In this document: piece after piece, positions 27,986 to 43,500 of the stretch | Position numbering within the stretch: position 1 is the stretch's first letter | How the letters are laid out: each line of letters starts with the position of its first letter | Origin: Bacteroidetes bacterium MedPE-SWsnd-G2 | GTDB taxonomy: Bacteria; Bacteroidota; Bacteroidia; Flavobacteriales; Flavobacteriaceae | Length of the DNA: 64,000 bases | Direction: 5' to 3' | NCBI GenBank assembly: GCA_001874335.1 | Contig: MPDE01000014.1 | Location: 1-64,000 of the forward strand | Position numbers and translations under genes: made by a program | Notes under the pieces: model-generated | Told to the model about the DNA's origin: nothing | Databases searched by the model: none | Seen by the model: the letters and a program-made list of their open reading frames with translations, nothing else

Positions 27986-29506
27986 TTACTCAATGCTCTT
28001 AAATTCTTTTATGGCTTGGTTGGGTTCTATTACATTATAACCCATCCAAAATTCAGGATCATAACTCGGTAAGTATACGGGGGTAACTTTAGCTTTTTCT
28101 TCAAAATCACTGAATGCTACTTCGTCTATACCTGAGTTTTCAAATACTACAAGTTCTTTTTTTGCACTCATCTCTACAATGAAATGCAGGTTGCATGCCA
28201 ATTCATTTTGTTTTCTTCTGCCCTTTACATTTTTGTTTTTTTCAATAATCTTGAGTGGGCGTTTGATTCCCATTTTAGAGCTTTCAGTCAGTTCGGCAAA
28301 TTTTAAACTGTATTTGTCATTATTGTTTTTGGAATAAATGTAGGTCCCTTTTTTAAGAAACAAATTATACGACAATCCTAAAAGGTTAAATTTCTCTACA
28401 GACTTTACATTTTCAAAGTCTAATCTTAAAATCGCAAAATCTTCAGTATTGACATACATAATTCCTTTGTAGTCTGCAGAACCTTTTGGTCTAAAACTTA
28501 TTTTATAGACAAAATCATTGTTTAAAAAGGTGTAGTCTAATAATTCAAATCTATATTTTTTAGCCTTGTGAATGAAATTCAAATCAGTATCCTCATAAAT
28601 GAAACTTTGAGTATTCATTCTTGCAATCATACTTTTTCGATATTTCAAGAAATTGTTTTTCCGGTTCTCTTCTTTCTTTTTTTGCTCTTCTAATAAGGCT
28701 TCAGTTTCTTTAGCTTCAGGATTGTCATAAAAGGTGCTATCCATATCTTCTTTAGTGCTGAAAATCCCTGATTTAATTTTAAAATAGGAGTCTCGTTTTA
28801 CATTCTGTTTAATAATGTCGTTAAAGCGCTCTTCATAGGCCTCCATGCTTATTTCTTGGCTTTTATCATATAGTTCTGAGGCTTTTATGATATTTAGTTT
28901 GTTCTCAGAACCTGGCATGTTTTTGCCATATAGATTTCCTAATATTTCGGTATAACTATCAGAATATTTGGGTAACGATTGCATCACGCTATCAATAAAT
29001 CCTTGATTAAACTCAGGAATGGAAGAGGTTTTAATTTTTATTTCACTTTTCTGAATTTCATTTATGTTAGACTCCCTAAAAAACAATGTGCTTTTAATGA
29101 AATTATTGTCGTAGTTAGACTCAAGGCTATCTTGTATATGCTTAATAATTTCGTCTAAGCTGTAGGTTTTGTTTGTTAAAACAACTTCGTCTAACTCTAT
29201 ATTCTTGGGTGATAGAAATATATTTAAGCTGTCAGAAACCGTTAAAGGTAAACGTTTGCCGTCATAGCCTAAACAAGAGATGTAGAGAGAATCTTGATTA
29301 GTGATTTCTACTTCTTTTAGAAAAATTTTAAACTCGCCTCTTTCATTACTAAGTACACCATAATTGTTGTTTACAGAGACTGTGGCAAAAGGCACAGCTT
29401 TTTTGGTGACCGAATCGAGAAGGATTCCTTTAGTTAGTTTTTGGGCAAATAATGTAGGTGCGCAACATAAAATTGCAAGAAATAATAAGTGTTTGATTGA
29501 TGACAT
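27986..29506 (-). CDS. Exported protein with carboxypeptidase-like regulatory domain
   Basis: A 506-residue protein. Signal peptide CCAPTLFAQ, then a CarbopepD_reg-like beta-sandwich (about 22-105: LTKGILLDSVTKKAVPFATVSV, SNERGEFKIFL), common at the N terminus of Bacteroidota envelope proteins. The remainder is long alternating charged helix and strand; an Asp/Glu/Lys-rich stretch lies around residues 230-265. No catalytic motif is seen. The frame opens at TTG 29521, but the ATG at 29506 fits the signal peptide. A perfect 16-base palindrome (29514-29529) sits just upstream. Function unknown. Confidence 0.8.
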   Translation of the reverse strand: MSSIKHLLFLAILCCAPTLFAQKLTKGILLDSVTKKAVPFATVSVNNNYGVLSNERGEFKIFLKEVEITNQDSLYISCLGYDGKRLPLTVSDSLNIFLSPKNIELDEVVLTNKTYSLDEIIKHIQDSLESNYDNNFIKSTLFFRESNINEIQKSEIKIKTSSIPEFNQGFIDSVMQSLPKYSDSYTEILGNLYGKNMPGSENKLNIIKASELYDKSQEISMEAYEERFNDIIKQNVKRDSYFKIKSGIFSTKEDMDSTFYDNPEAKETEALLEEQKKKEENRKNNFLKYRKSMIARMNTQSFIYEDTDLNFIHKAKKYRFELLDYTFLNNDFVYKISFRPKGSADYKGIMYVNTEDFAILRLDFENVKSVEKFNLLGLSYNLFLKKGTYIYSKNNNDKYSLKFAELTESSKMGIKRPLKIIEKNKNVKGRRKQNELACNLHFIVEMSAKKELVVFENSGIDEVAFSDFEEKAKVTPVYLPSYDPEFWMGYNVIEPNQAIKEFKSIE

Positions 29507-29589
29507 ATGGTTGATTTTCAATTGAAAATACTATAAATCAAGATGTCAGCTCTAAAGTTTAGCATTTTTTTAAAGCATTTAACCAAATT

Positions 29590-30294
29590 TTAACGGCTCA
29601 GATATTTTCTGTGATAGAGATGAAGTTCTTCTGGACTAGCTCCCATCCACTTTTTAAAGTATATGGCCCAAAAGTGAAGTTGTAGTTTTAAAATCCCAAC
29701 AGAATAGAAGCGACGAGAAGAAGTGACCAGCCATTTTGGGATCACAACAAATTGCTTTCGTTTATACAACTGATTTATTAAAATGTTGTCCTCATAGATT
29801 AGGTATCGCTCATCGTAACCGCCAATAGATTGAAAAAGGGGTTTGGTTATAAATTGACTTTGATCACCACCTCTACCAGCGCGCCATGAAAACTGAGTCA
29901 ACCATCCCAAGAATTTAAGCCATAAATGTGGGGAATCAAACTTCATTTTGAAGCATCCAGCTTCATGACCTTTAGAAACTTGGTTAGCTATTAATCTGTC
30001 AAAATTTTGTGGTGGTATAGAATCGGCATGTAAAAAATATAGAATATCTGAAGTCGCTACTGAAGCCCCTTTGTTGAGTTGAATAGGTCTTCCTTTGTTT
30101 GAAGCAACAAGCTTTAATTTTGAATTGGTTTTAGATAATCTATTGACTATTGCTACTGTTTGATCGGTACTACCGCCATCAACTATTATAATTTCTTTGA
30201 TAAGGGAAGAAGAACGTTGCGCAAGTGCATTTAGCAAATGTTCAATGTTTTGCGCTTCGTTAAGTGTTGGGATTATGATTGAAATATTACTCAT
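29590..30294 (-). CDS. TIGR04283-type arsenosugar-associated GT2 glycosyltransferase
   Basis: A 234-residue GT2. It opens ISIIIPTLNEAQNIEHLL, then VDGGSTDQT and the metal motif LHADSIPP. The C-terminal RRFYSVGILKLQLHFWAIYF is typical of the small GT2 group NCBI labels TIGR04283 arsenosugar biosynthesis glycosyltransferase. It is the last gene of the nine-gene operon, overlapping the DUF547 gene by 8 bases. It may add a sugar to the arsenoriboside or a lipid; the acceptor is not proven. Confidence 0.88.
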   Translation of the reverse strand: MSNISIIIPTLNEAQNIEHLLNALAQRSSSLIKEIIIVDGGSTDQTVAIVNRLSKTNSKLKLVASNKGRPIQLNKGASVATSDILYFLHADSIPPQNFDRLIANQVSKGHEAGCFKMKFDSPHLWLKFLGWLTQFSWRAGRGGDQSQFITKPLFQSIGGYDERYLIYEDNILINQLYKRKQFVVIPKWLVTSSRRFYSVGILKLQLHFWAIYFKKWMGASPEELHLYHRKYLSR

Positions 30295-31015
30295 TTAGTT
30301 CCCAGTTGTATGGTAAATATTCAATTTTGATGTTTTTAGGTATGATTTCGTCAGAATAAGTATTTATAAATGCAATAACCCCGCCTGCAGCTTTAAAATC
30401 TTTTGAATACCATTTAAAAAGTTTGGAGACTACTAATTTCTTGTCAGAAATCATTAAGTTTTCTCTTGAGTTTAAAAATGAAGAAGTAACCGATTTTAAT
30501 TGAGTGTCGAGTTGGTTCTCAGAAAACGCTCTATTGTATAATGGAGGACAGGATCGGGAAGCACAATTAATGGCAAAGTGAATTTCTGGCTTGTTATACG
30601 TTCTTAATATATCATGCTCAATTTCATTTAATGAGTAGAACTTAGTGCCAATTGTAATAAACTTCGTTGTCCAAGCTTTTTTAATATCCTTGATGCTTTT
30701 TACTGGATAATTGTCCACTATTAATTTTAGTGTATATGCGTTGTAGGTATTGATCCAAAACGCAATTTGAGCGTTTTCAGAATTTAATTGAGAAGGTTTG
30801 GTATTTGATAATATTTGTAAATAATCTTCAAAATCAGCTGAGTTTGATTTTAGGTTTTGGTAATTGACATTTCCGTTGGGATCCACATGGCTTTGCAAAA
30901 TGGTATTCCAAAGAGCATGGATTTCTTTATTGTTATTTTCATAGTTAATGTCATAGTCTGTTAGGGTAGACGATGAAACAATCAATTGAAAAAGAATGTT
31001 TAGAAAAAGTGTCAT
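30287..31015 (-). CDS. Secreted DUF547 protein (copy 2) in the arsenosugar operon
   Basis: A 242-residue DUF547 protein with an N-terminal hydrophobic segment. It shares the same landmarks as the copy at 24051: AFWINTYNAYTLKLIV, EIEHDILRTYN, CASRSCPPL and LFKWYSKDF. Start and stop overlap the desaturase-family gene as ATGA, and the downstream GT2 overlaps by 8 bases, so it is firmly inside the operon. Enzymatic role unknown; location suggests work on an envelope step of the arsenosugar route. Confidence 0.88.
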   Translation of the reverse strand: MTLFLNILFQLIVSSSTLTDYDINYENNNKEIHALWNTILQSHVDPNGNVNYQNLKSNSADFEDYLQILSNTKPSQLNSENAQIAFWINTYNAYTLKLIVDNYPVKSIKDIKKAWTTKFITIGTKFYSLNEIEHDILRTYNKPEIHFAINCASRSCPPLYNRAFSENQLDTQLKSVTSSFLNSRENLMISDKKLVVSKLFKWYSKDFKAAGGVIAFINTYSDEIIPKNIKIEYLPYNWELNE

Positions 31016-31890
31016 GATTTACTTAAAGGATAAAGCTCTTGTTTTATAAATCCATCAGGAAAGTTTTCATCACCTTCAAATCCTAATTCTATATCCTTTC
31101 CACTTTTTGGAATGTAATCGGTTTTAAAAATGTAATCCCAGACGCTTAATGTCAAGCCAAAATTGACTCCGTATTTATGCTCTAATTTTTTACTATGGTG
31201 CCAAATGTGCATTTTAGGGTTGTTTAAAATCACTTTTAAGGGGCCGTAATCCCAACCCAAATTGGCATGGTTAAGATGACCTATTGCTATATTGAAAAAG
31301 TATACGATACTAACATCTTGGGCATCAAACCCACCTATTATTGCGATAGGTATATACAACAACGATTTGTACACCACAGGCTCCATCCAGTGGTATCTTA
31401 AATGGGCAGCAAACCCCATTTCTTTAACCGAATGATGAACTTTATGAAACTGCCATAGCCAATCTACTCTGTGCAATAATCTATGCGTGTTCCATTGCAC
31501 AAAATCACTAACTAAAAAGAAAATGAATAGGCCAAGCCATTTAGGTAAATTATCGACGTCAAAAAGTTGAAAGTTATCGATAGACCAGCCAAAATTGGAT
31601 AATAAATTGTCAAAAAAAGCAGCTGTTGTGTTGGATAGAGCAATTAAAAAAATGAGATTTAATAAGAAAAAATTAAAGAACATATAAAAGGTGTCTAACC
31701 AAAAATCTTTTCTAAAAGCGGCTTGGTTTTTACGCCATGGAAACGCTAATTCTAATCCCCAAATGATTAGGGAAACGAGGATTAATCCGTAAAAATAATT
31801 GTCCCAGTTTCCTTCTAATAAAACTAATTTTTTAATGTAATTCCAGTACCCAGAATACGATTCTAAAATTATTTGAATGTACTTTTCCAT
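31012..31890 (-). CDS. Sterol desaturase / fatty-acid hydroxylase superfamily membrane enzyme
   Basis: A 292-residue integral membrane di-iron oxygenase of PF04116. His clusters are in order HRLLHR, HKVHH and HIWHH. Four or more hydrophobic segments flank them. Substrates in this superfamily include sterols, fatty acids and alkylglycerols. It lies between ArsM and the DUF547 gene, overlapping the latter by 4 bases (ATGA). In an arsenosugar operon it may act on a lipid part of the product; this is inference only. Confidence 0.9.
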   Translation of the reverse strand: MEKYIQIILESYSGYWNYIKKLVLLEGNWDNYFYGLILVSLIIWGLELAFPWRKNQAAFRKDFWLDTFYMFFNFFLLNLIFLIALSNTTAAFFDNLLSNFGWSIDNFQLFDVDNLPKWLGLFIFFLVSDFVQWNTHRLLHRVDWLWQFHKVHHSVKEMGFAAHLRYHWMEPVVYKSLLYIPIAIIGGFDAQDVSIVYFFNIAIGHLNHANLGWDYGPLKVILNNPKMHIWHHSKKLEHKYGVNFGLTLSVWDYIFKTDYIPKSGKDIELGFEGDENFPDGFIKQELYPLSKS

Positions 31891-31900
31891 AAGCTTTTAT

Positions 31901-32869
31901 TTAGCAGCATCCGCCACCGTCATAATGAAAGGTTGATTCGCTAATATGAATATCAGGTCGGTTTAAGTCTTTTAACGCAGCCGCTGTTTTATCGCATATT
32001 GCTATAGGTTGATTTTGCAATAAAAGGTGTCCTTTATTGTCATCAAAATAGTGTTCTTCACCAAAGTAAATAGCAGCTTTCCCAGTAAAAACACATGGGC
32101 CATCTTCCGGCATTGGGTCTTTAATTGCAGCTACTTCAATAGATTCGATATAAATTATTTCATCTGTTGGGTATTGTCCAGGTGCAAGAATGCGATAAGG
32201 TTTACGAGCTCTAATTTCAATCGTACCAAAACCAGCGTCAGTTAGCATTTTAACGTATTCTGCTATTGGTAAGCTTCCGCTAAGGCAAAGCGCTCTTAAT
32301 CTATCATCGTTTCGTAAAGTGTCATTCATAGGTTGCTCACATGTGGGATCGCTCATTACTAATCTACCGTGTGGTTTTAAAACGCGGTACATTTCTGCAA
32401 TTGCCTTTTTTAAATCTTCAGTTTTGAAAATATTAAATAGACAATTTTGAGCAGCAACATCAATAGTGTTATCTTCAACAGGTAAATTTAAAGCATCTCC
32501 TTTTTTTAGATCTACGAAGTCACTTTTAAACCAAGGGTTTTGTTCTTCGGCCGTTTTAAAATTGGTCATAGACGCTTCGAGCATTTCGTCTACAACATCA
32601 ACTCCAATTACGCCTCCTTTTTGCCTGTTGAAATATGAGAATTGTAAAAGTTCCATACCGCCACCAACGCCAACATATAACATTTTTGGATTATTTGTTA
32701 AATCTCTGGCATGAACTGTACTTCCGCAGCCATAATTCATTTCTTGCATTATTCTTGGAATCTTAAGACCAGGAAGCTCCCAGATTGGATTTGTTGTACA
32801 GCAAAGACCAATGTCAGGTGTTAAGGCTGCCTCTTTGTAAACGTCGTGGGTTGTGTCAAGATAACTCAT
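31901..32869 (-). CDS. arsM: Arsenosugar-type arsenite methyltransferase
   Basis: A 322-residue SAM-dependent class I methyltransferase. The SAM motif is LYVGVGGGMELL (64-75), then GVDVVDEMLEAS. Arsenic-binding cysteines are plausible among Cys23-Cys24 (GLCCTT), Cys48 (YGCGS), Cys143 (QNCLFN) and Cys195 (ALCLSG). The C terminus ends GGGCC. The layout matches the arsenosugar ArsM subgroup rather than the short resistance ArsM. It would convert arsenite to dimethylated species used by ArsS at 34810. Gaps are 2 bases from the phosphorylase stop and 10 from the desaturase-family gene. Confidence 0.92.
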   Translation of the reverse strand: MSYLDTTHDVYKEAALTPDIGLCCTTNPIWELPGLKIPRIMQEMNYGCGSTVHARDLTNNPKMLYVGVGGGMELLQFSYFNRQKGGVIGVDVVDEMLEASMTNFKTAEEQNPWFKSDFVDLKKGDALNLPVEDNTIDVAAQNCLFNIFKTEDLKKAIAEMYRVLKPHGRLVMSDPTCEQPMNDTLRNDDRLRALCLSGSLPIAEYVKMLTDAGFGTIEIRARKPYRILAPGQYPTDEIIYIESIEVAAIKDPMPEDGPCVFTGKAAIYFGEEHYFDDNKGHLLLQNQPIAICDKTAAALKDLNRPDIHISESTFHYDGGGCC

Positions 32870-32871
32870 GA

Positions 32872-33684
32872 TTATAGGGTCTTAATTAATTCTTTAAATA
32901 GTGTAATCATTTCTGGTTCAGCCTTCATTGCCATAGCAATAATCTCATCAATATTTACGGGCTTTAGATTGTTTGGGTCGCATTCATCTGTCAAAACTGA
33001 CACTGCTGCAACTCTTAAATTTAAATGATTAGCGACAATAACCTCCGGAACGGTACTCATACCAACGGCATCTGCACCAATAATATTTAGCATTCTGTAT
33101 TCAGCTCTTGTTTCTAACTGCGGTCCTACCACACTGGCGTAAACCCCTTTATGTAAGCTAATGCCATGCTTATCTGCAATTTCTGAAAATTTTTCATTTA
33201 ACTCCAGATTATAAGGCGCGCTCATGTCGGCAAAACGTTCACCTAATTGAGAAACTCCTTTAAAGGCTAATGGCGAGCTACCTTGCAAATTAATATGATC
33301 GTCAATCAACATCAATTCTCCTTTTTTAAAGTTTAGATTTATAGCACCAGCTGCGTTTGAAACTAAAAGGGTGTTAATTCCTAAGGCGTTCATTATGCGC
33401 ACTGGAAAGGTAACATCTTGCAACGTGTAGCCTTCGTACAGATGAAACCTACCTTGCATAACTATAACCTTTTTGCCTTCTAAAATTCCGTAAATGAGTT
33501 TTCCTTTATGAAACTCAACCGTTGCAGTAGGGAAGTAGGGGATATGATTATAACTTACTTCTTTTATAATTTTAACATGATCTAATAATTGACCAAGACC
33601 TGTCCCTAAAATTATTCCTATTTCTGGCGATTCAAACCCTTTTTCTACAAGGTATTTAGTCGCTTTTTTTATTTCATTTATCAT
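32872..33684 (-). CDS. Purine nucleoside phosphorylase
   Basis: A 270-residue trimeric-type PNP (inosine/guanosine family). Motifs are IGIILGTGLGQL, MQGRFHLYEGY, VSNAAGAINLNF, VGMSTVPEVIVA and VLTDECDP. It cleaves purine nucleosides with phosphate. Placed inside the arsenosugar operon between arsM (2-base gap) and the DUF2064 glycosyltransferase (11-base overlap), it may remove adenine from the arsenic-containing nucleoside made by ArsS, although a housekeeping role is also possible. Confidence 0.92.
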   Translation of the reverse strand: MINEIKKATKYLVEKGFESPEIGIILGTGLGQLLDHVKIIKEVSYNHIPYFPTATVEFHKGKLIYGILEGKKVIVMQGRFHLYEGYTLQDVTFPVRIMNALGINTLLVSNAAGAINLNFKKGELMLIDDHINLQGSSPLAFKGVSQLGERFADMSAPYNLELNEKFSEIADKHGISLHKGVYASVVGPQLETRAEYRMLNIIGADAVGMSTVPEVIVANHLNLRVAAVSVLTDECDPNNLKPVNIDEIIAMAMKAEPEMITLFKELIKTL

Positions 33685-34291
33685 TTTCTAAAATACGTTT
33701 TTTAAGTTTTTTATTTGATATAAGATCCTCGTAAGTATCTATATCGTTTAAGGTCTCAATGTGGCTCAAATTTAAATGCTCTATATCTTTAAGTGTATCT
33801 TTATATACAGTTGAGGTGCCCCAATTTTTATTTAAAAATACAGATTTATGCAGTGTTTTCATGCCTAATAAATAATATCCGCCGTCTAAAGCCGGACCAA
33901 TAACAATGTCTGATTTGCTAAGCTTCTGAAATGCTTCAGAAATATGATTAGTTTTTAAGTCGAATAAATCGCTACCTACAATTATAATATTTTGATAGCC
34001 GTCTTTAAATCCCTGTTCAAAAGCCGTGGCCATTCGGGATCCTAAATCTATTCCTGTTTGAAGGTGTTTTGTTGCGTATTCATCAGTCCAAATGTCATCT
34101 TTTATTATAGCTTCAGAATAATATATGGCTTTATCGCAATTAAACTTTTTAATTGTTTTAGCGGTATGTCGCATTAACTCTTCATAGGTTTTTAGAGCTA
34201 ATTGGTCTCCAATAGTTTTTGCTAATCGCGTTTTTACCTTCCCCAATTCAGGGTTGCGAGTAAAGGTGATAAGTAGTTGAGTATTATTCAA
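33674..34291 (-). CDS. TIGR04282/DUF2064 arsenosugar-associated glycosyltransferase
   Basis: A 205-residue nucleotidyl/glycosyltransferase-like protein. The N-terminal signature TRNPELGKVKTRLAKTIG and the metal-region IIVGSDLFDLKTNH are typical of DUF2064 (TIGR04282, arsenosugar biosynthesis). The start is TTG at 34291; no ATG or GTG lies upstream in frame before a stop, and the next Met would remove the signature. It overlaps the PNP gene by 11 bases and follows the rhodanese by 23. It probably builds or activates the sugar part. Confidence 0.86.
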   Translation of the reverse strand: MNNTQLLITFTRNPELGKVKTRLAKTIGDQLALKTYEELMRHTAKTIKKFNCDKAIYYSEAIIKDDIWTDEYATKHLQTGIDLGSRMATAFEQGFKDGYQNIIIVGSDLFDLKTNHISEAFQKLSKSDIVIGPALDGGYYLLGMKTLHKSVFLNKNWGTSTVYKDTLKDIEHLNLSHIETLNDIDTYEDLISNKKLKKRILENDK

Positions 34292-34314
34292 GGTTGAGAT
34301 TAATAGTGATTTAA

Positions 34315-34806
34315 TTAGTGTGTTTTTTGACCTGATTTAAGAAACTTACTCCATTCTTTCGAAAAGACATGAACATTTTCAGTTTTTATATTGTTCCGGT
34401 TGTAAACGTTAAGCCCTTGATTTTTCCATTCAAAAATTCCACCATAAAGATTGAAAACGTTGGTAAATCCCTTTTCTTTTAGTTTCTCTCCAATTATTTC
34501 TGATCTCACACCAATGGAGCAGTACACAACAATTGGTTTTGAAAAATCTTTGATCTCATTTACTGAAGCATCGATGTTAAAATTCTCAAATCCAATATTT
34601 ATAGCGTTTTTTAAATGACTCACATTATATTCACCTTGTTCTCGGCTATCTAAAATTAGATATTCATTATAATTAGAATTTAATTCTTCTACGTTTATAT
34701 ATTTGACCGAATGCGTATTGTATTTTTCAATAACATCAGGGATGGTGTTTTGAGAAAAACCCAAAGCACTTACAAAGAAACAAAGGATAAAAATATAGTG
34801 TTTCAT
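34315..34806 (-). CDS. Exported rhodanese-like protein
   Basis: A 163-residue protein with signal peptide (ALGFSQ). A rhodanese domain at about 32-140 has active-site loop CSIGVRS with Cys96 and the upstream ILDSREQGEYNVSHLKNAINI. Its reaction (sulfur transfer or arsenate-related chemistry) is not set by sequence. Only 3 bases separate it from ArsS, so it is co-translated with the core of the arsenosugar operon; the signal peptide places it outside the cytoplasm, unlike ArsS and ArsM. Confidence 0.88.
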   Translation of the reverse strand: MKHYIFILCFFVSALGFSQNTIPDVIEKYNTHSVKYINVEELNSNYNEYLILDSREQGEYNVSHLKNAINIGFENFNIDASVNEIKDFSKPIVVYCSIGVRSEIIGEKLKEKGFTNVFNLYGGIFEWKNQGLNVYNRNNIKTENVHVFSKEWSKFLKSGQKTH

Positions 34807-34809
34807 ACG

Positions 34810-35865
34810 TTAAGCAACTGTACCTTGACAACTACTTCCTGCTCCAGCAGTACAGCCATAGCAATGCTGAGAAATAACTATTTCTCGATTATTGATAAGA
34901 CTTTCGTTGTAATTAGAGATATGTTTGATGGGGCTGTTTACTGGAAGGCTGAGCATTTGATTAAAATCACAATCAAATAAATAGCCGTCCCAACTCACCG
35001 AAATTGTATTTGTGCACATTACGTTAGCAACCGCATTAGGATTGTAAGCCTCTACCAGCGCATACATATAATCTTCATAGTTTTCTGATGCAATTAAATA
35101 GTCTAAAAACCTTGAAATTGGCAGGTTTGTTATGGCAAACAAATTGTGGAATTGAATTCCGAAATCTTCAATTAATGCCTTTTTAAAATCCTTTTCCATT
35201 GCCGATTGGTTAGCTGGCAAAAAGGCTCCCGAAGGGTTGTACACCAAATCCAATTTTAAATCGCTGCCTGGCATACCATAACCCACGTCGTTTAAGGACT
35301 GTAGAGCTTTTATAGATTTGTCGAAAACACCGTCACCTCTTTGCTTATCTGTTTTGCCTTTGGTCCAATGTGGCATGGAAGAAATGACATGAATATTATG
35401 AGTTTTAAAGAAATGGGGTAAATCATAATAGGTTTTGTTCGCCCTAATAATGGTTAAATTGGAACGTACAATAAAATCCTTAATTCCTGCCTTTGATGCT
35501 TCTTCTACAAACCATCTAAAATTTGGATTCATTTCTGGAGCACCACCGGTTAAATCTAAGGTATGAGCTTTTGTGGTTTTAATAACTTCAAGACATTGTA
35601 ACATGGTCTCTTTGGTCATTATTTCTTTGCGATCTGGACCAGCATCTACATGGCAATGTTCACAAACCTGGTTACACATATAACCCAAGTTAATTTGAAG
35701 TATTTCAAGTGTTTTAGCTTTTAATGGATATTGGTTGGTCTCAGAGATTTTTGATTTAAAAGTGGGTAATTCACCATTGCTAAATATGCCATTAGATAAT
35801 ATCTCTAATTGACGATTAGCGTTGGCAAGAGTGTTATTTCTTTTTTTTAAGGAAGAATTAGCCAT
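34810..35865 (-). CDS. arsS: Arsenosugar radical SAM enzyme ArsS
   Basis: A 351-residue radical SAM enzyme with a DUF3641 C-terminal domain. The Fe-S motif is CNQVCEHC (Cys64, Cys68, Cys71). Further motifs are LDLTGGAPEMNP and the extra Cys region near the C terminus (CYGCTAGAGSSCQG). Members of this group transfer the 5'-deoxyadenosyl part of SAM to dimethylated arsenic. It is the second gene of the operon, after the CMD-family gene by 43 bases, and pairs with arsM at 31901. Confidence 0.94.
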   Translation of the reverse strand: MANSSLKKRNNTLANANRQLEILSNGIFSNGELPTFKSKISETNQYPLKAKTLEILQINLGYMCNQVCEHCHVDAGPDRKEIMTKETMLQCLEVIKTTKAHTLDLTGGAPEMNPNFRWFVEEASKAGIKDFIVRSNLTIIRANKTYYDLPHFFKTHNIHVISSMPHWTKGKTDKQRGDGVFDKSIKALQSLNDVGYGMPGSDLKLDLVYNPSGAFLPANQSAMEKDFKKALIEDFGIQFHNLFAITNLPISRFLDYLIASENYEDYMYALVEAYNPNAVANVMCTNTISVSWDGYLFDCDFNQMLSLPVNSPIKHISNYNESLINNREIVISQHCYGCTAGAGSSCQGTVA

Positions 35866-35908
35866 TAGTGGATGTTTGTTTTAATTGATTTGGTCGCTCT
35901 AATGACTA

Positions 35909-36244
35909 TTACATTTCAAGTTTGTTCACTTTGTTCATCATTTGAACGCCATGAACAAGGGTCGCTCCACTTTTAATGGCAGCGCCTACATGCAAAGCTT
36001 CCATCATTTCTTCTTTTGTAATACCACGTTGTAAACCATCTTTAGTGTAGGCATCAATACAATATGGGCATTGTTCTGTGTGTGCTACGACCAAGGCTAT
36101 AAGTGATTTTTCGCGTTCAGATAATTTGCCTTCGGCAAAAACGCTGTTGTAGTATTCGAAAAATTTAGCACCTAATTCTTCATTCCATTCAGAAATTTTT
36201 CCAAATTTTTTTAAATCAGATGGGTCGTAATATGTTTTTTGCAT
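35909..36244 (-). CDS. Arsenosugar-associated peroxidase-like protein (CMD family)
   Basis: A 111-residue carboxymuconolactone decarboxylase (AhpD-like) protein. The CxxC redox pair is Cys59-Cys62 (EQCPYCIDAY), followed by the conserved His in EALHVGAAIKSG. NCBI names close relatives arsenosugar biosynthesis-associated peroxidase-like. It is the first gene of the operon, right after the promoter at 36282-36312, and may handle oxidants or reduce pentavalent arsenic intermediates, which is inference. Confidence 0.9.
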   Translation of the reverse strand: MQKTYYDPSDLKKFGKISEWNEELGAKFFEYYNSVFAEGKLSEREKSLIALVVAHTEQCPYCIDAYTKDGLQRGITKEEMMEALHVGAAIKSGATLVHGVQMMNKVNKLEM

Positions 36245-36281
36245 AGCTGTATATTGAGTCTTGATTTGAAATTTAATCAGA

Positions 36282-36312
36282 GAAATATACAGATTAAAGT
36301 CGTTTCATTCAA
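36282..36312 (-). promoter_or_regulatory. Promoter of the arsenosugar operon
   Basis: On the minus strand a TTG (36310-36312) is followed after 20 bases by TATATTTC (36282-36289), 7 of 8 with TAnnTTTG when n is free, so close to the Bacteroidota consensus. It is 37 bases upstream of the first operon gene. I saw no ArsR-type operator or arsenic sensor gene beside it. Confidence 0.6.
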
Positions 36313-36398
36313 TTAATACTAACAGAAAAGGGTAATATATAAAATGAAAGACTTAATTCTTTTAAAATTATAAGCTGATGAACTTAGTTTATTGGGCT

Positions 36399-37562
36399 TT
36401 AAAGCAATGCGGTTTCCAATAATTTTGAATCGTTTATTGGTAGTTTTATGTTTACATATGCGCCTTTGTTTGTGTTTCCAGCATCAATTTCACCACCATG
36501 AGTTTCAATGATTTTTTTACATAAAATTAGACTTAATCCTAATTTACCATCTCCTTTGTCGTGCCCAGAAAACGGTTTGGTTTCTTTGATGTCAAAAGAC
36601 TCAGAAAACTGTTCACCTATGTTGGTGCAATTAAATTCGAAATTACCGCTATTTTGTTTTAGCTGTATTGCAGTTTCTGAATAAGGCGTTGAGTACTCAA
36701 TGGCATTTTGAATGATGTATTTAAAACACAGTTCTAATAGCTTAGCATCTACCTTTAATTCGGGACGAGTGACATCATGATTAAATTTGATGTAAACATT
36801 TCGTTCTACTGCCAGTGTTTCAAACTGATCAATTATTTTGTGTGTTAAATCTAAAATATTTGTATTGCTCAACTTTAAAACTTTTGCTCCCAAGGTGTTC
36901 AAGTTTGAAATGTTCAAGGCTTTAAATGCAAATAATTCTAAGCGGTTTGAGGACTCGTCTAATATATCAACTAACTCTTTGGTGTCCTCTGTAAGTTCAT
37001 CTGGGTCTATCAGCTGAATGGCGCCAATAATACCATTTAAAGGCGTTCTAATTTCATGACTTATAATTCTAAGAAACTCCGATTTGGCAGCGTCTAATTT
37101 CAAGAGTTTTTTATTCGCCAATCTCAGTTCTACAGTGCGTTCTTCAACCTTTTTTTCTAAGGTGTTATTAAGGCATTTAAGTTTAGACTTGCTTTCTTTT
37201 AATTGTAAATGCGTTTTTATGCGCGCCAATAATTCAATTTTATTGAAAGGTTTGGTAATGTAATCAACACCTCCTGATTCAAAACCTTGAGCCAAGCTAA
37301 GCTCATCTGTTTTGGCGGTAATAAATATAATGGGGATATCTGAATAGTTTTCCAGAGTTTTGATGGTCTCACAGGCTTCAAAACCATTCATTACCGGCAT
37401 CATGACATCCATTAAAATAAGGTCAAAATCCTCTTCCTTGGCTATTGCTGTAGCTTCTAATCCATTTAAGGCATAATCAATATCATAGTCATAATCACTT
37501 AAAATATTAGCTAAAACTTGAATGTTTTTGGAGTTGTCATCAACTATTAAAATTTTGCACAT
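36399..37562 (-). CDS. Receiver domain-histidine kinase fusion (response regulator/kinase)
   Basis: A 387-residue cytoplasmic protein. Receiver domain at about 1-120 with acidic DD (8-9), phospho-acceptor Asp52 (LMDVMMP) and Lys104. A coiled coil at about 120-160 leads to HisKA with His169 (RIISHEIRTPLNG). The ATPase domain has the N box IIQNAIEYS, but its G1 box reads CTNIGEQF with Asn-type instead of DxGxG; the G2-like DGKLGLSL is present. It lies 14 bases after the giant hybrid kinase and is probably its partner. Some HKs use the Asn-type G1, so loss of ATPase is not certain. Confidence 0.9.
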   Translation of the reverse strand: MCKILIVDDNSKNIQVLANILSDYDYDIDYALNGLEATAIAKEEDFDLILMDVMMPVMNGFEACETIKTLENYSDIPIIFITAKTDELSLAQGFESGGVDYITKPFNKIELLARIKTHLQLKESKSKLKCLNNTLEKKVEERTVELRLANKKLLKLDAAKSEFLRIISHEIRTPLNGIIGAIQLIDPDELTEDTKELVDILDESSNRLELFAFKALNISNLNTLGAKVLKLSNTNILDLTHKIIDQFETLAVERNVYIKFNHDVTRPELKVDAKLLELCFKYIIQNAIEYSTPYSETAIQLKQNSGNFEFNCTNIGEQFSESFDIKETKPFSGHDKGDGKLGLSLILCKKIIETHGGEIDAGNTNKGAYVNIKLPINDSKLLETALL

Positions 37563-37576
37563 CTTTTCTATGGGGT

Positions 37577-40500
37577 TTAGTTAAGGCTATGCGGTAATTT
37601 TGATTTGAGAATAAGAATGTAGTTTGGGAAATCCAAAACCAGTTCTTCTACTTCTTTAATGTCAAAAATTTGCACAGCGTTATCCAGTGTTTCTAAGTAA
37701 ATTTCTAAGTGTGGTAATTGATGCTTGTCGTTAAATGTTTTTAAGGTTGTAATAAATGTTTTGGCGCCTTTTAGACGAATTCTACTCGAAAGACTATCCC
37801 AATATTCAGTCTTTATTTGTTCCAATTCATTTATGATTTCTTCTAGGTTATCTTGATTTTCAATCGTGTAATCAATCAAGTTACTTTCCTTTGACTCTTG
37901 CTTTTCAGCGTGTTCTGTATATGGTATAAATTGAATTAAACTTTTAATTAATTGCGCATATAAAATGGGCTTTCTAATGAAGCCATCAAAGCCTTCGGTA
38001 ATAACTTCTTTTTTGGTGTTTAAGGCTGAAGCTGTAAGCGCAATTATAGGTGTATGTTGAGTTTTAGGGTTGGATTTGATTTGTTTTGCAGCTTCATATC
38101 CATCTAAAATTGGCATTCGTAAATCCATTAAAACTACATCTGGCGCATTTTGATTGACCATTTCTATAGCTTCCTGCCCATTTCGGGCTTCCATAATTGT
38201 TAAATTGAATGACTGTAAATAGCCTATAATTACATTTCTGTTGTCTTCAATGTCATCGACTACCAAAACTTTTGCATGTGAAAACTCAACACTTCGTAAT
38301 CGTTGTTTGCAGCTTGCTGAAAGTACATCTGAGTAATTTGATACGACAGTAACTTCTGGTAATTGAATTGTAAAAACAGACCCTTGGTTTAATTGGCTTT
38401 CTGCAGATAAACTACCACCCATTAAAGCTATAAGTTGTTTAGAAATACTCAGCCCAAGGCCAGTGCCTCCATATTTTCTGGTATCAAGATCTTCTACTTG
38501 TTGAAAGGATTGGAAAATAGATTTAAGATCATGCTCCGAAATCCCTATTCCTGTGTCGGTTACTTTTAAAGTTAAATCTACTTTGTCAGTAGATCGTTTT
38601 TCATGCGATACGAGTATTGAAACAGAGCCTGCCTCAGTGAATTTAAAGGCGTTATTGATAAGGTTTATTAATACTTGTCTAAGTCTTAATTCGTCTAATT
38701 CTAAGTGCTTTGGGAGCTCAGGAGATATAGAGACATTAAACCTTAAGTTTTTGTCTTTGGCCTTAATTTCAAACATGCTTGCAACTTCTTCTACCAATGA
38801 TCTAATTGCAATTTCTTCTGTCCTTATTTCGGTTTTACCAGCTTCAATTTTCGAAATGTCAAGAATGTCGTTTATAATACCTAACAAGGTCTTTCCGCTC
38901 GATTGAATAGAGTTTAAATAGTTGAGGTTGGAAGGTTTTTTTATTTGTTGACTTAAAATTTCTGAGAATCCAATAATGGCATTCATTGGTGTTCTAATCT
39001 CATGGCTCATATTAGCCAAGAATGTACTTTTAGCTTTGTTAGCTTCCTCCGCTTTTATTTTTGCGCTTTCAATATTCAACTGCATTTCTTTTTGTGAAGA
39101 TATATCCATTTGAAATCCGATAAAACGTTGGCATTTACCTTCTTCATTTTTTTCAACAACCTCACCAACATCTCTAATCCAAACATAGTGACCGTCTTTA
39201 TGAAGCATTCTAAATTCAATGTCGTACTTATGGGTTGCATTGCCTTCAAAATGTGGCTCTAATGCAGAGTTTACCCAATCTACATCATCAGGGTGTAACT
39301 TTGTAGACCACGCATCTAAGCATGTTACTTTGTAGTTGGAAGGGTATCCAAGCATGGTAACAAAGGTTTCATTAGTATACAGTTCATCGGTTAAAGGGCG
39401 ATAGTCCCAAGACCCAATATTGGCTGCATTTGTAGCAGAGTTGATTTGATCATAAGAACGTCTAAGTTTCGACTCTAATTCTTTGTTGTCTGTAACATCA
39501 TATAGGGATACTAAAGAGGTTTCTTCATCAAGGAAATTACCTCTAATTATAGAGGTTTTAGCCCAAAATTCTTTTTTGTTTTTAACAGTGACAAATTCAA
39601 TTTCTCGATTGTCAACTTTGTTTTCCTTGTCTAGTAATTTTATGGCTTCTCCTAGTGCGTTTTTGTCTTTGTAGAGATTTAGATCGTCTGCTTTTAAATC
39701 TACAGTACTTTCTATTTCAAGCATCTCTTTTATGGTGTCATTAATAAAGAGAGGGCTTTTGGTTTTTCTATTAAAGATGGCAACACCAATAGGTATTGAG
39801 TTAAGGATTTGTGATAGATTTTCCTGTAAACGCTTAATAGCTTTTTCCTTTGTTTTTAATTCTGTGACATCCCAGATAATTCCATTGGCGGTAATTGGTA
39901 TGCCTTCTGAGTTATAAATGACTTCTCCAGATTTTGAAATATGGGTGTATTCTCCATCTTGTTTTAAAATTCTATAAGCTAAATTGTACTTTGATTTTTT
40001 GTTTTTTAGTACGCTACCAAATACCTCTTCAACCATTTTAGCATCTTCAGGGTGAACAATTTTTAGATACTCATCTTTACTGTATCTTGATTGCGGGCCT
40101 TCTGGTTTGAAAATGCCTAAACAGTCTGCTTGAAAGCTTATGGTTTTAGTAGGTACATCATAAGTCCATGTTCCCATGTTTGCCGATTGAAGCGTGAAGT
40201 CTAAATAATCTTTAGCTTCTTTAAGATTGACCATGTTTTGGTGAGCTTCATACTTTTTCCAAACATAATCCATTAATAGTTTTAATTGATTTTGGTCTGT
40301 CTCGTTATAAGGCTTTAATTTATTTGCTACACCAGCAACGGCAACAATTTTTCCTTGGGAGAATACAGGTATGCTTAAAAAGCGATGAATTTGGAAATGA
40401 TTGTCAGGTGTGCCTTTGGCTTTAGGATGATTTTTACTGTAATCATTCACTAAAATAGGTTTACGCTGCCTAACAACTTCTCCCCATAAACCGGCTTCGT

Positions 40501-43500
40501 CAAGGTTTTCGGTCATGGTTTGCCTCGAAAATGAAGTGTCATGCATGACTCCGTCAGAAAGATTACTTAAGGTAAATGTCTTTTTATCCTCATCATACAT
40601 CATAATATACCCTATTCCGCTTTCTGTAATATCTACTGCGCGTTCTTGAGCAAAATTTAAAAAGGCAGAAATATCGTTAATAGAATACGATGACACTTGC
40701 ATTAACTTTTCAATGCGTTCACTGTTTTTTCTTATTTCCGTTTCGTTGAGAATGATTTCTGTAATGTCTCTTGAAATACCGATAAGGCCAATGGTTTCGC
40801 CTTTGGAATTTATAACAGGATTTTTAGCAACTTCGTATACCGCCTTCAAATCGCCATATTCATCAAATAGTTTTTCTTGATTATACGATGCCTGGTTTGT
40901 TGCAAATACATTTTCATCGTTATCTATAAAAGTTTTGGCTAAATCTGATGAGTAGAGGTCATGATCGGTTTTTCCAATAAAGTCTTCTTCTTTGCAATTA
41001 GTGAATTCAAGAGTTTGCCTGCTCGCTAATGTATACTTACCTGATAGGTCTTTTGCAAAAACAGATCCTGGTATAGATTGGACTAATGTTTTTAAATAAT
41101 TATGTTTTTCTTGAATGTCTTTTTCGGTTTTTAAACGTGCCGAAATATTTGAAAGAACTTCTGCAAATACTTTTAGTAGATTGATTTCCCAGTCTAAGAA
41201 TTGATGAGTGTTACTCATAAAATTATACTCAATAAACCCACGTAATTGTTTGTCTCTAAAATAGGGCACGCTTAATAAACTTTTTATCTTGTTTTCTTTG
41301 ACATAGTTTAGAATAGGTTCATCAAACCTTGAGCATGTATCATGTATTATGAAATGTTCTCCATTTTCATGATTTTGGTGTATTTCCTCCGAGAATGTGC
41401 AGGGGAGTATAAAGGCTGAAGAGCTATTGTTTTTTACGATGCTCGATGTCCATTCTGTTAATGGCGTGCATTTTTCATTTTTACCGTGATATTCATAAAT
41501 ACGTGCTTTGTCAGCCTTAATAAATTGAGCAATTTGTTTAAGGGCTGAGAAAACAGCATCATCTACCTCCTCAATTGGGCAGTTAATATATTGTGATGAT
41601 ATTTTGGTGAGAATTTGGCTTAATTCCTTTTGGTGATTGATTTTAGTTTCTTGTTCTTTTAAATCGGTGATGTCCTCTATCACACCAAGAACACTAAGTA
41701 CTTTGCCGTTGTCATCAAACTCAAAAGGTAAATGCGTCTCTTTAATCCAGAGATACTTTCCGTTTTTATGTTTAGTTCTAAGGGTTAAGCTTCTTGTTTC
41801 TGGAGTTTCTCTAATTAGCTTTACATGTTGTAAAAACTTATCGCGATCTTCAGGATGAATTTTGCTTAATTCATCATCAGTAGCATTGTGTTTTAAGTCT
41901 TCAAAACTGTAGCCTAAAATTTCTGTAGTTCTTTGGCTTAAAAACGTATAACCATCATGAACGTTAAATACTGAAAGTCCGTTAGGTATTAAATTTATGA
42001 TGTTATCAGAAAATTGTTTTTCCTTGGCTATTTTGGACAAAAGATTTTGGGTGTTTGTAATGTCTTGAGAGACACCATACATATACAATCTTTTTCCAGA
42101 ACTATCTTTAATAATTTCGGCCTTTGATTTAATCCAAATAACCTTGCCGTCGGTTGGTCTTTTAAATTTATAAGTGGCTTTGAATACTGATTTGTTTTGG
42201 GCGGCTTTAAATGCTCTAAATGTTTGTTTTGCAAGTTGCCTGTCGGCTTTAAGCATTTGAAAGTAGTACTCTTTTAAAAGATGGTTGTCTTTTTTGCTAA
42301 TAAGGCCCTTTAATTCTAAAATTTTATCTGAAGGGGCATAAATTTTTGGGTGTGAAAAATCAAATTGCCAAAAGCCAGATTCAGTCAGAGATAAAGCGTT
42401 TCTTGATAGTTTGCTAATTCGCTCTAATTCCTGCTCATTAGTTTTTATGGCAATTGTTCTTTTTTCAACTAATTTTTCAAGGTTTTTGTTTTGTAATTTA
42501 AGTTGTTGTTTTGATTCTTTAATCTTTTTAGATTGCTTTTTAACCTTGTCTTTTAACATACCAGTCCAAAAAATGAAACCAAGAACAGTAATACTTAATA
42601 TTGTTAAAATAGTGAGTATTTGATATAGTCCCTTGTGATTGGCTTGTGAGAAATATTCATGAGAGAATAGCGCGAGTTTTTCATTTGAAATCTGTGAAAT
42701 TCCTTTATTTAAAATACTAGCTAAAACCCAATTTTCTGAATTAAGAGCAAATCGAAATTGTTGTTTGTCAATACCAGTTGGAGCGACCATATTCACATTA
42801 GAAAACTGGTGATGTCTTATAATATATTCCCCCGTAATATTTAACCCGATGTAGGCTTCTATAGATCCTGTATTAACATGTTTTAAGGCTTTTATACGTG
42901 AGGTATATTCTTTAAATTCTATAAGGGGATAAGCTTTAATCAGTTTGTTTTTTATTCCTAATTCTTTAGATATCGCAACAGTTTTACCATAAAGGTCCTC
43001 CATGTTGTGTGTAAAGGAGTTTTTAGGGTTGGCAAATACAACCAAGGAGCTAGAAATGTAGGAGTTGGTGGCACCCAAATTTTGTTCTAAAATAGGTTTG
43101 TCATCAAAAATTGGATAAAAATCGATGCAAGTATTGTTTTTTAATTTTTCAAAGACCTCTTTTTCAGAATCTGCATGAATGTAGTTTATTTCTAAATTAT
43201 AGGTTTCAGCTATAAAGTTTAAGACTTCAGTGGTGATTCCGCTGGCTTCTTTGTCCCACATTAAGTATGGTTGATTGCCTTTTACATAACAATTTATTTT
43301 TGAATGTTTTTTTAGCCAATCTTTTTCTATGTCGGTTAAAACCGTATTTGTTTTGGTATGCTTAGAAAATGAAATCCATTTGGAATTCATAAACCTTTTG
43401 CGCTCTGGGCTTAATGAAGCTAAGGCTTTGTCAATTATGGAATTTAAGGGTGATAGGCCTTTTCGTGAACCGATGCTTATTTTCATTCCCGAAACACCTT

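Follow-up and report, generated by a model that had tools for sequence, protein, structure and literature searches.

A nine-gene flavobacterial operon proposed to make arsenosugars by way of a nucleoside phosphorylase

Bacteroidetes bacterium MedPE-SWsnd-G2, a member of the Flavobacteriaceae, carries in the first 64,000 nucleotides of contig MPDE01000014.1 (assembly GCA_001874335.1; this whole stretch is called the window below) a run of nine open reading frames (ORFs) at 29590–36244 on the minus strand that encodes arsenosugar-type enzymes and several accessory proteins. Gaps between the genes are at most 43 bp and three junctions overlap (in transcription order, 43, 3, 23, −11, 2, 10, −4 and −8 bp, negative values being overlaps), so that the packed array described in an initial annotation, which was made from the letters alone, is confirmed in coordinates, strand and spacing. 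All nine proteins pass a curated NCBIfam or Pfam cut-off, and the arsenosugar-type ArsM (NF038099) and ArsS (TIGR04167) models are among those passed, which bears out the annotation's reading of an arsenosugar-type cluster. Read from 36244 to 29590, and with profile scores given in bits against the curated cut-off, the genes are as follows.

35909..36244, minus strand: AhpD/CMD peroxidase-like protein, first gene (TIGR04169, 187.6 against 120; CxxC present, as CPYC).
34810..35865, minus strand: ArsS, radical SAM arsenosugar enzyme (TIGR04167, 437.9 against 300; C64xxxC68xxC71).
34315..34806, minus strand: rhodanese-domain protein (NF045521, 192 against 145; signal-peptide-like N-terminus and CSIGVR loop, both seen by eye).
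33674..34291, minus strand: TIGR04282/DUF2064 protein, CofC-like (TIGR04282, 206.9 against 134; TTG start according to the ORF tool).
32872..33684, minus strand: trimeric-type purine nucleoside phosphorylase, PNP (NF006054, 339.6 against 218).
31901..32869, minus strand: ArsM, arsenosugar-type arsenite methyltransferase (NF038099, 569.7 against 400; Cys48, Cys143 and Cys195).
31012..31890, minus strand: fatty-acid-hydroxylase/sterol-desaturase family protein (PF04116, 96 against 31; H136xxxH140, H149xxHH153 and H228xxHH232).
30287..31015, minus strand: DUF547 protein (PF04784, 93.1 against 27; invariant H146, nearly invariant C151 and C156).
29590..30294, minus strand: GT2-type (glycosyltransferase family 2) TIGR04283 protein, last gene (225.3 against 182; H89, D91, G143-D144-Q145 and E168-D169 invariant).

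Judging from these sequences, we regard it as an even call that the genes form an operon that makes arsenosugars or arsenosugar lipids and work by a route through PNP, TIGR04282 and TIGR04283. In the known part of the route, ArsM would methylate As(III) to dimethylarsenic with S-adenosylmethionine (SAM) as donor, and ArsS would then move the 5'-deoxyadenosyl radical of SAM to arsenic, giving 5'-deoxy-5'-dimethylarsinoyl-adenosine. Beyond this point, a phosphorylase (PNP here, 5'-methylthioadenosine [MTA] phosphorylase, or MTAP, in Proteobacteria) would swap adenine for phosphate to give the alpha-ribose-1-phosphate form; TIGR04282, acting as a CofC-like nucleotidyltransferase and not as a glycosyltransferase, would convert the sugar-1-phosphate to a nucleoside diphosphate sugar; and the inverting TIGR04283 enzyme would pass the sugar to a glycerol-type acceptor, yielding the beta-riboside that occurs in natural arsenosugars. 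Arsenic redox or thiol chemistry may fall to the rhodanese and the CxxC peroxidase-like protein, and the lipid or export side to the hydroxylase and the DUF547 protein. GT2 transferases invert, and nucleotidyl transfer leaves the anomeric centre unchanged. Since phosphorylases yield alpha-ribose-1-phosphate (PMC7226091) and a natural arsenosugar is a beta-ribofuranoside (PMC6656958), such a sequence of steps would end in the beta-riboside, and the stereochemistry of the proposal is consistent. ArsS-type adenosylation of arsenic is stated in PMC12159101.

What the analysis establishes is the identity of the genes, their motifs, their conserved linkage and their recurrence in other lineages. In ArsM, C48, C143 and C195 align with Cys72, Cys174 and Cys224 of the solved arsenic methyltransferases PDB 4kw7/4fr0, which we take to be the arsenic-site cysteines. 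The three cysteines listed for ArsS make up the radical SAM CxxxCxxC sequence motif, and no sequence relative of ArsS was found in the PDB at E ≤ 0.001. The TIGR04282 protein, though its family is named for a glycosyltransferase, looks more like a nucleotidyltransferase: it passes the Pfam gathering threshold of CofC (PF01983, 30.6 against 22 bits), and G17, K20, R22 and L23 (G-x-x-K-x-R-L) together with D108 are invariant in 28 aligned sequences, K-x-R-L being a motif that marks nucleotidyltransferases. In the PDB it matches 3cgx, a "putative nucleotide-diphospho-sugar transferase", at E = 1.6e-51; its matches to 2i5e (E 0.001) and to a 2-phospho-L-lactate guanylyltransferase (E 0.55) are weak, with unrelated designed proteins at similar E values. 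A second TIGR04282-like paralogue without the K-x-R-L of the main copy occurs in four loci of relatives (L017:11133-11810, L024:11059-11739, L051:11097-11780 and L060:11127-11804). For TIGR04283, the invariance of the listed residues holds over 20 aligned sequences, E168-D169 being the acidic ED motif of the GT2 type, and glycosyltransferase structures are matched. The initial family labels mostly stood, with two adjustments: the DUF2064 "glycosyltransferase" resembles CofC-type nucleotidyltransferases, as just described, and the enzyme first assigned to a "desaturase" family belongs to the PF04116 hydroxylase superfamily; its histidine boxes are invariant in 23 aligned sequences, and it fails the ornithine lipid hydroxylase OlsE model (NF052566, 85.2 against 475 bits). 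Among 57 aligned DUF547 sequences H146 is always kept, and C151 and C156 are present in at least 90%; the AlphaFold model (pLDDT, the predicted local distance difference test, 91.9) had no Foldseek hit at E ≤ 0.001, and its VIA-align Z scores did not exceed 4.5, which is not evidence for a new fold. Clusters of Aquimarina hold DUF547 in three or four tandem copies (L066:16467-20429, L022:15603-18583 and L031:16308-19305).

Conservation within the family was followed in the best 80 of 586 loci from a scan with the window ArsS, a set biased towards the window, of which 47 are complete once 23 loci with a SusC insertion and 10 with short flanks are set aside. The peroxidase-like gene, TIGR04282 and PNP are present in all 47 complete loci, ArsM and DUF547 in 44 each, rhodanese and TIGR04283 in 41 each, so the accessory genes are not, as the initial annotation allowed they might be, absent from other arsS loci. 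PNP is found in 77 of the full 80, the remaining three being contigs of 4.5–7.4 kb. Counted as direct same-strand neighbours among the loci that hold both genes of a pair, the peroxidase-like gene adjoins arsS in 79/79, rhodanese adjoins arsS in 38/71 and TIGR04282 in 70/71, PNP adjoins TIGR04282 in 65/77 and ArsM in 50/52, the hydroxylase adjoins ArsM in 11/19 and DUF547 in 22/22, and DUF547 adjoins TIGR04283 in 43/44; this adjacency exceeds chance. The gene order that the annotation proposed to compare across arsS loci is conserved within the family, and the nine-gene order as such is a form belonging to this family.

Less biased than the 80 loci is a sample of 110 genera of the family, each represented by one genome (19 of the genomes lie outside the class with completeness of 90% or more and contamination of 5% or less). 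ArsS is above cut-off in 82 of these genera. A cluster-type PNP, defined by a score of at least 356 bits, occurs in 82/82 ArsS-positive genera versus 12/28 ArsS-negative ones (Fisher p = 4e-12, uncorrected for phylogeny), and TIGR04283 in 70/82 versus 4/28, again uncorrected. In 67 of these 82 the distance between PNP and ArsS is at most 15 kb. The other fifteen genera are not linked by this measure; one (G355, with ArsS in pieces on several contigs) was left out, and in all 14 inspected (13 plus G134) TIGR04282 adjoins the PNP. In G134, where ArsM, PNP and TIGR04282 lie elsewhere, a TetR-family regulator directly follows the peroxidase-like gene and arsS (L121:9153-9767).

Across the phylum, 121 of the 296 Bacteroidota genomes sampled have an ArsS above cut-off, and from these 60 ArsS neighbourhoods (50 in other families, 10 in the window's own) were examined with 8-kb flanks, some of them cut by contig ends, counting genes at more than 60 bits in models built for the analysis. 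The 50 other-family loci, among which L125 and L163 were kept although their ArsS was not recovered in ORF calling, hold the peroxidase-like gene in 35 cases, TIGR04282 in 22, TIGR04283 in 17, DUF547 in 8, ArsM in 6 and the hydroxylase in 2. The commonest partners there are only the peroxidase-like protein, TIGR04282 and TIGR04283, which with ArsS form the wider Bacteroidota core.

A plasmid collection held 52 ArsS records, 47 of them from Burkholderia and one each from Hymenobacter, Pseudanabaena, Cupriavidus, Acinetobacter and Thiodictyon; one record per genus was examined, and five of these genera are not Bacteroidota. In three of the five, an MTAP lies within about 7 kb of ArsS and passes TIGR01694 (cut-off 274.85): Burkholderia with 312.1 bits, Acinetobacter with 314.8 and Cupriavidus with 276.8. 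The same three genera have DUF547 near ArsS; a PF04116 enzyme is found there in Acinetobacter and Thiodictyon, and a phosphate transporter in Cupriavidus and Acinetobacter. TIGR04282-type genes occur in four of the five genera, as do TIGR04283-type genes, Thiodictyon's scoring under the cut-off (162.4 against 182); the ArsM proteins of Cupriavidus and Acinetobacter are under the arsenosugar-ArsM cut-off. The Burkholderia record has MTAP, TIGR04283 and TIGR04282 directly after one another on a single strand, some 6 kb away from ArsS. The Cupriavidus record, which is unannotated, reads on one strand PiT-type phosphate transporter, ArsM, a possible CMD protein (only 13.3 bits), ArsS, two proteins recognised by eye as an FAD enzyme and a TVP38-type protein, TIGR04283-like, TIGR04282-like, MTAP, a radical SAM protein and DUF547. 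According to PMC7226091, trimeric MTAPs act mainly on MTA, which, like the ArsS product, is a 5'-substituted adenosine. Convergence with Proteobacteria is the strongest new evidence, the ArsS clusters on the Cupriavidus, Burkholderia and Acinetobacter plasmids carrying an MTAP in place of PNP; because MTA resembles the ArsS product, nothing else speaks as strongly for a phosphorolysis step as this replacement. Two further features recur on these plasmids: a TVP38/TMEM64 protein and an FAD-dependent "mercuric reductase"-like oxidoreductase near ArsS on four of the non-Bacteroidota records (L205, L207 by eye, L208 and L210), and another radical SAM protein, whose gene immediately precedes DUF547 in Cupriavidus (L207:12392-13861) and Burkholderia (L209:8096-9493).

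A number of findings weigh against the phosphorolytic route. No phosphorylase lies near ArsS, within the 8-kb flanks, in any of the 50 other-family Bacteroidota loci, and PNP lies within the flanks in 6 of the 10 own-family neighbourhoods; none was found in the stretches fetched of the Pseudanabaena and Thiodictyon plasmids. The TIGR04282 protein fails the NCBIfam CofC model (TIGR03552, 35.6 against 105 bits), the hydroxylase is present in under half of the complete loci (22/47), and above-cut-off ArsM is absent from four of seven ArsS-positive genomes tested (G343, G368, G358 and G373). The operon PNP, whose closest solved chain is 4lna, fails the MTAP cut-off TIGR01694 (94.1 against 274.85 bits) and looks like the family's ordinary trimeric PNP. 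The Asp of its TDECD motif, at the position that we take to be equivalent to human Asn243 and to act in base recognition, was considered as a sign of adenine specificity and rejected, as it is also present in 26 of 30 Bacteroidota PNPs, including 15 of 19 non-cluster ones. At the position presumably equivalent to human His257, a sample of 14 PNPs taken from the 80 loci shows Ile in 13 and Val in one (L080); His stands there in the separate PNPs of genus g2, and the residue is hydrophobic also in several other Bacteroidota PNPs. A dedicated cluster PNP subfamily is rejected, for eight ArsS-negative genera have a PNP that scores as cluster-type with no other cluster gene in the stretch fetched (in G341 near a contig end).

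These findings bear on the possibility that PNP is a purine-salvage enzyme that came to sit in the operon, adenine being lost in some other way (for instance through a hydrolase or by direct transglycosylation). Its genome has no other NF006054 match, just one such PNP each is found in 9 of 11 ArsS-positive family genomes checked, cluster-type copies stand away from such genes in the eight genera just mentioned, and trimeric PNPs are specific for 6-keto purine nucleosides and usually reject adenine nucleosides, according to PMC7226091, where PNP and MTAP belong together in the trimeric NP-I family; the substrate that we propose for the window PNP is an arsenonucleoside. We nevertheless consider salvage an unlikely explanation, given a PNP in 77/80 loci that keeps its place beside TIGR04282 in 14/14 genera with ArsS elsewhere, the cluster PNP that two genomes of genus g2 (G084 and G289) have besides a separate one, and the MTAP near ArsS in three proteobacterial clusters. 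Two PNP matches in genomes of 1.6–1.7 Mb (G357:C13:60063-60857 and G385:C9:106918-107712) contain one in-frame TAA each.

PNP could also be in an arsenic operon for another reason, since the mammalian enzyme has been reported, though not in every study, to reduce arsenate to arsenite in vitro (PMC1257606 and PMC12608789): the phosphorylase would perform arsenolysis with arsenate in place of phosphate, and thiols would reduce the resulting ester to arsenite for ArsM. Family scans found no arsenate reductase among the nine operon proteins (the genome was not searched for arsC), and phosphate transporters, which might import arsenate, are present in some clusters. Arsenate reduction leaves unexplained, however, why the phosphorylase is sited with TIGR04282 and TIGR04283 rather than with ArsM, both in the 14 unlinked genera and for the Burkholderia MTAP, and why MTAP should be chosen at all, and we think it very unlikely.

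The phosphorolytic route to arsenosugars meets a different difficulty in four ArsS-negative genera (G182, G312, G330 and G397), which keep rhodanese, TIGR04282, PNP and TIGR04283, three of them with DUF547 as well, and have neither ArsS nor an ArsM above the NF038099 cut-off; the ArsM-like match of G397, at 89.8 bits, falls below that threshold. Such genomes would be expected if rhodanese, TIGR04282, PNP, DUF547 and TIGR04283 formed a general pathway from 5'-deoxynucleosides (e.g., 5'-deoxyadenosine) to glycosides, into which ArsM and ArsS feed arsenic in some genomes. The distribution of TIGR04283 (70/82 versus 4/28), however, is as expected were the four leftovers of ArsS loss; we hold a general glycoside pathway to be distinctly unlikely. 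The word "complete" in the initial description of the operon is not supported as stated, completeness being something that sequence cannot show.

In 23 of the 80 family loci, arsS and the rhodanese gene are separated by genes for SusC, SusD, a symporter-like protein and a metallophosphoesterase, preceded by a second TIGR04282-like gene; the flank mostly ends before ArsM and TIGR04283, and neither is counted in these loci, which are the following.

Loci with the SusC insertion: L007, L017, L020, L021, L023, L024, L027, L035, L037, L039, L043, L050, L051, L053, L055, L057, L060, L061, L062, L069, L071, L077 and L079.

The insertion is possibly an import module for organoarsenicals. Its symporter-like protein matches no Pfam family at 1e-5 and, at a looser limit, scores 21.3 bits with SSF, under the cut-off of 22.8. 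The metallophosphoesterase subfamily, whose C88, C90 and C98 are the same in all 11 sequences compared, occurs at E ≤ 1e-40 in 5 of the 296 Bacteroidota genomes, all five ArsS-positive and four with the gene within 8 kb of ArsS. A possible import module between arsS and the remaining genes, with a phosphoesterase confined in this sample to ArsS-positive genomes, is what would be seen if the operon were partly catabolic, importing and degrading algal arsenosugars or arsenolipids. Against such a role, which we rate as highly improbable, the window operon is without the SusC/SusD module, no match of this phosphoesterase subfamily was found in its genome, and ArsM and ArsS are anabolic. A broader hypothesis, which we put forward tentatively and hold to be rather doubtful, is that phosphorolysis, nucleotidylation and glycosylation are the missing half of arsenosugar biosynthesis, assembled independently in Bacteroidota (with PNP) and Proteobacteria (with MTAP), and in addition that in some flavobacteria this route is joined to an import module dedicated to arsenic (SusC-SusD, the sodium:solute-symporter-like protein and the Cys-rich metallophosphoesterase), so that heterotrophs would both make and scavenge organoarsenicals.

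Other variants concern the metallophosphoesterase and possible transporters. One of the genomes with this phosphoesterase subfamily has a single ORF (L128:9101-10339, minus strand) that joins the cluster's metallophosphoesterase to the CMD/peroxidase-like domain. In a genome of genus g2, the gene between PNP and ArsM (L201:2302-2964, plus strand) is aquaporin-like, with two NPA motifs seen by eye, and is a possible arsenite channel. A PiT-type phosphate transporter follows ArsM in 8 of the 80 loci (L005, L013, L015, L016, L025, L034, L076 and L078) and is found elsewhere in locus L011 and in two proteobacterial clusters (L207:3988-5124 and L208:13298-14407); these transporters possibly serve arsenate uptake.

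The window operon is preceded by one further feature.

36245..36398, minus strand: upstream intergenic region of 154 bp, with a promoter-like TTG-N20-TATATTT at 36312-36283.

The initial annotation placed all nine genes behind one promoter. A single promoter is plausible, and the claim as it was worded finds no support, because the promoter-like pattern is at chance level (11 occurrences in the window against 13.3 expected from shuffling). Across the intergenic region, on the same strand, lies a response regulator/histidine kinase-like gene (by eye; 36399-37562), itself preceded, farther upstream of the operon, by a gene for a 2192-residue protein that by eye resembles a multi-sensor hybrid histidine kinase (37577-44155, minus strand). 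The same-strand downstream neighbour, 68 bp away, is a CarboxypepD_reg gene (27986-29521), relatives of which directly follow TIGR04283 in L013, L025, L034 and L075. The family scans of the nine operon proteins revealed no regulator or efflux pump; Acr3 is above cut-off on another contig of the same genome.

The cyanobacterial ArsM–ArsS arsenosugar pathway has reportedly been described by Xue in 2017 and 2019 and by Cheng in 2021. The window operon shares its ArsM (NF038099) and ArsS (TIGR04167) families, and on the Pseudanabaena plasmid arsM and arsS are one gene apart; the difference is that the window array adds the phosphorylase, TIGR04282, TIGR04283, rhodanese, peroxidase-like, hydroxylase and DUF547 proteins, none of which was annotated or matched within 7 kb of arsS on that plasmid. 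We know of no phosphorylase or sugar steps in the arsinothricin cluster arsQML. That cluster is similar in making an organoarsenical with ArsM and a radical SAM enzyme, as PMC8552651 and PMC12159101 describe, and its product differs from arsenosugars. Six of the nine window proteins pass NCBIfam models of the arsenosugar neighbourhood (TIGR04167, TIGR04169, TIGR04282, TIGR04283, NF038099 and NF045521, "rhoda_near_glyco"), which means that the family names themselves already register this association; the best assignments of the PNP, PF04116 and DUF547 proteins carry no arsenosugar name. The initial remark that the extra partners are little described holds within limits. In the open-access literature searched, no enzymes assigned to the steps after the ArsS product were found; papers pairing "arsenosugar" with "phosphorylase" concern, by title, human or plant exposure or are reviews, and two of them present PNP as an arsenate reductase and not in arsenosugar synthesis, most subscription papers lying outside the search. 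Arsenosugar glycosyltransferases are mentioned at the level of annotation in PMC13077682. As family names already record part of the neighbourhood, what is new here is the phosphorylase, hydroxylase and DUF547 partners, the assignment of steps and the convergence.

Much of the arsenic in edible marine algae occurs as arsenosugars, which are among its major forms there (PMC13197290). The operon and its proteobacterial counterparts give a candidate enzyme for each step together with a stereochemical prediction, which makes the open pathway testable with single purified proteins, and the similar sets in unrelated bacteria suggest enzymes for the steps still missing in it. As 121 of the 296 Bacteroidota genomes and 82 of the family's 110 sampled genera have an ArsS above cut-off, heterotrophic bacteria may be overlooked makers of organoarsenicals.

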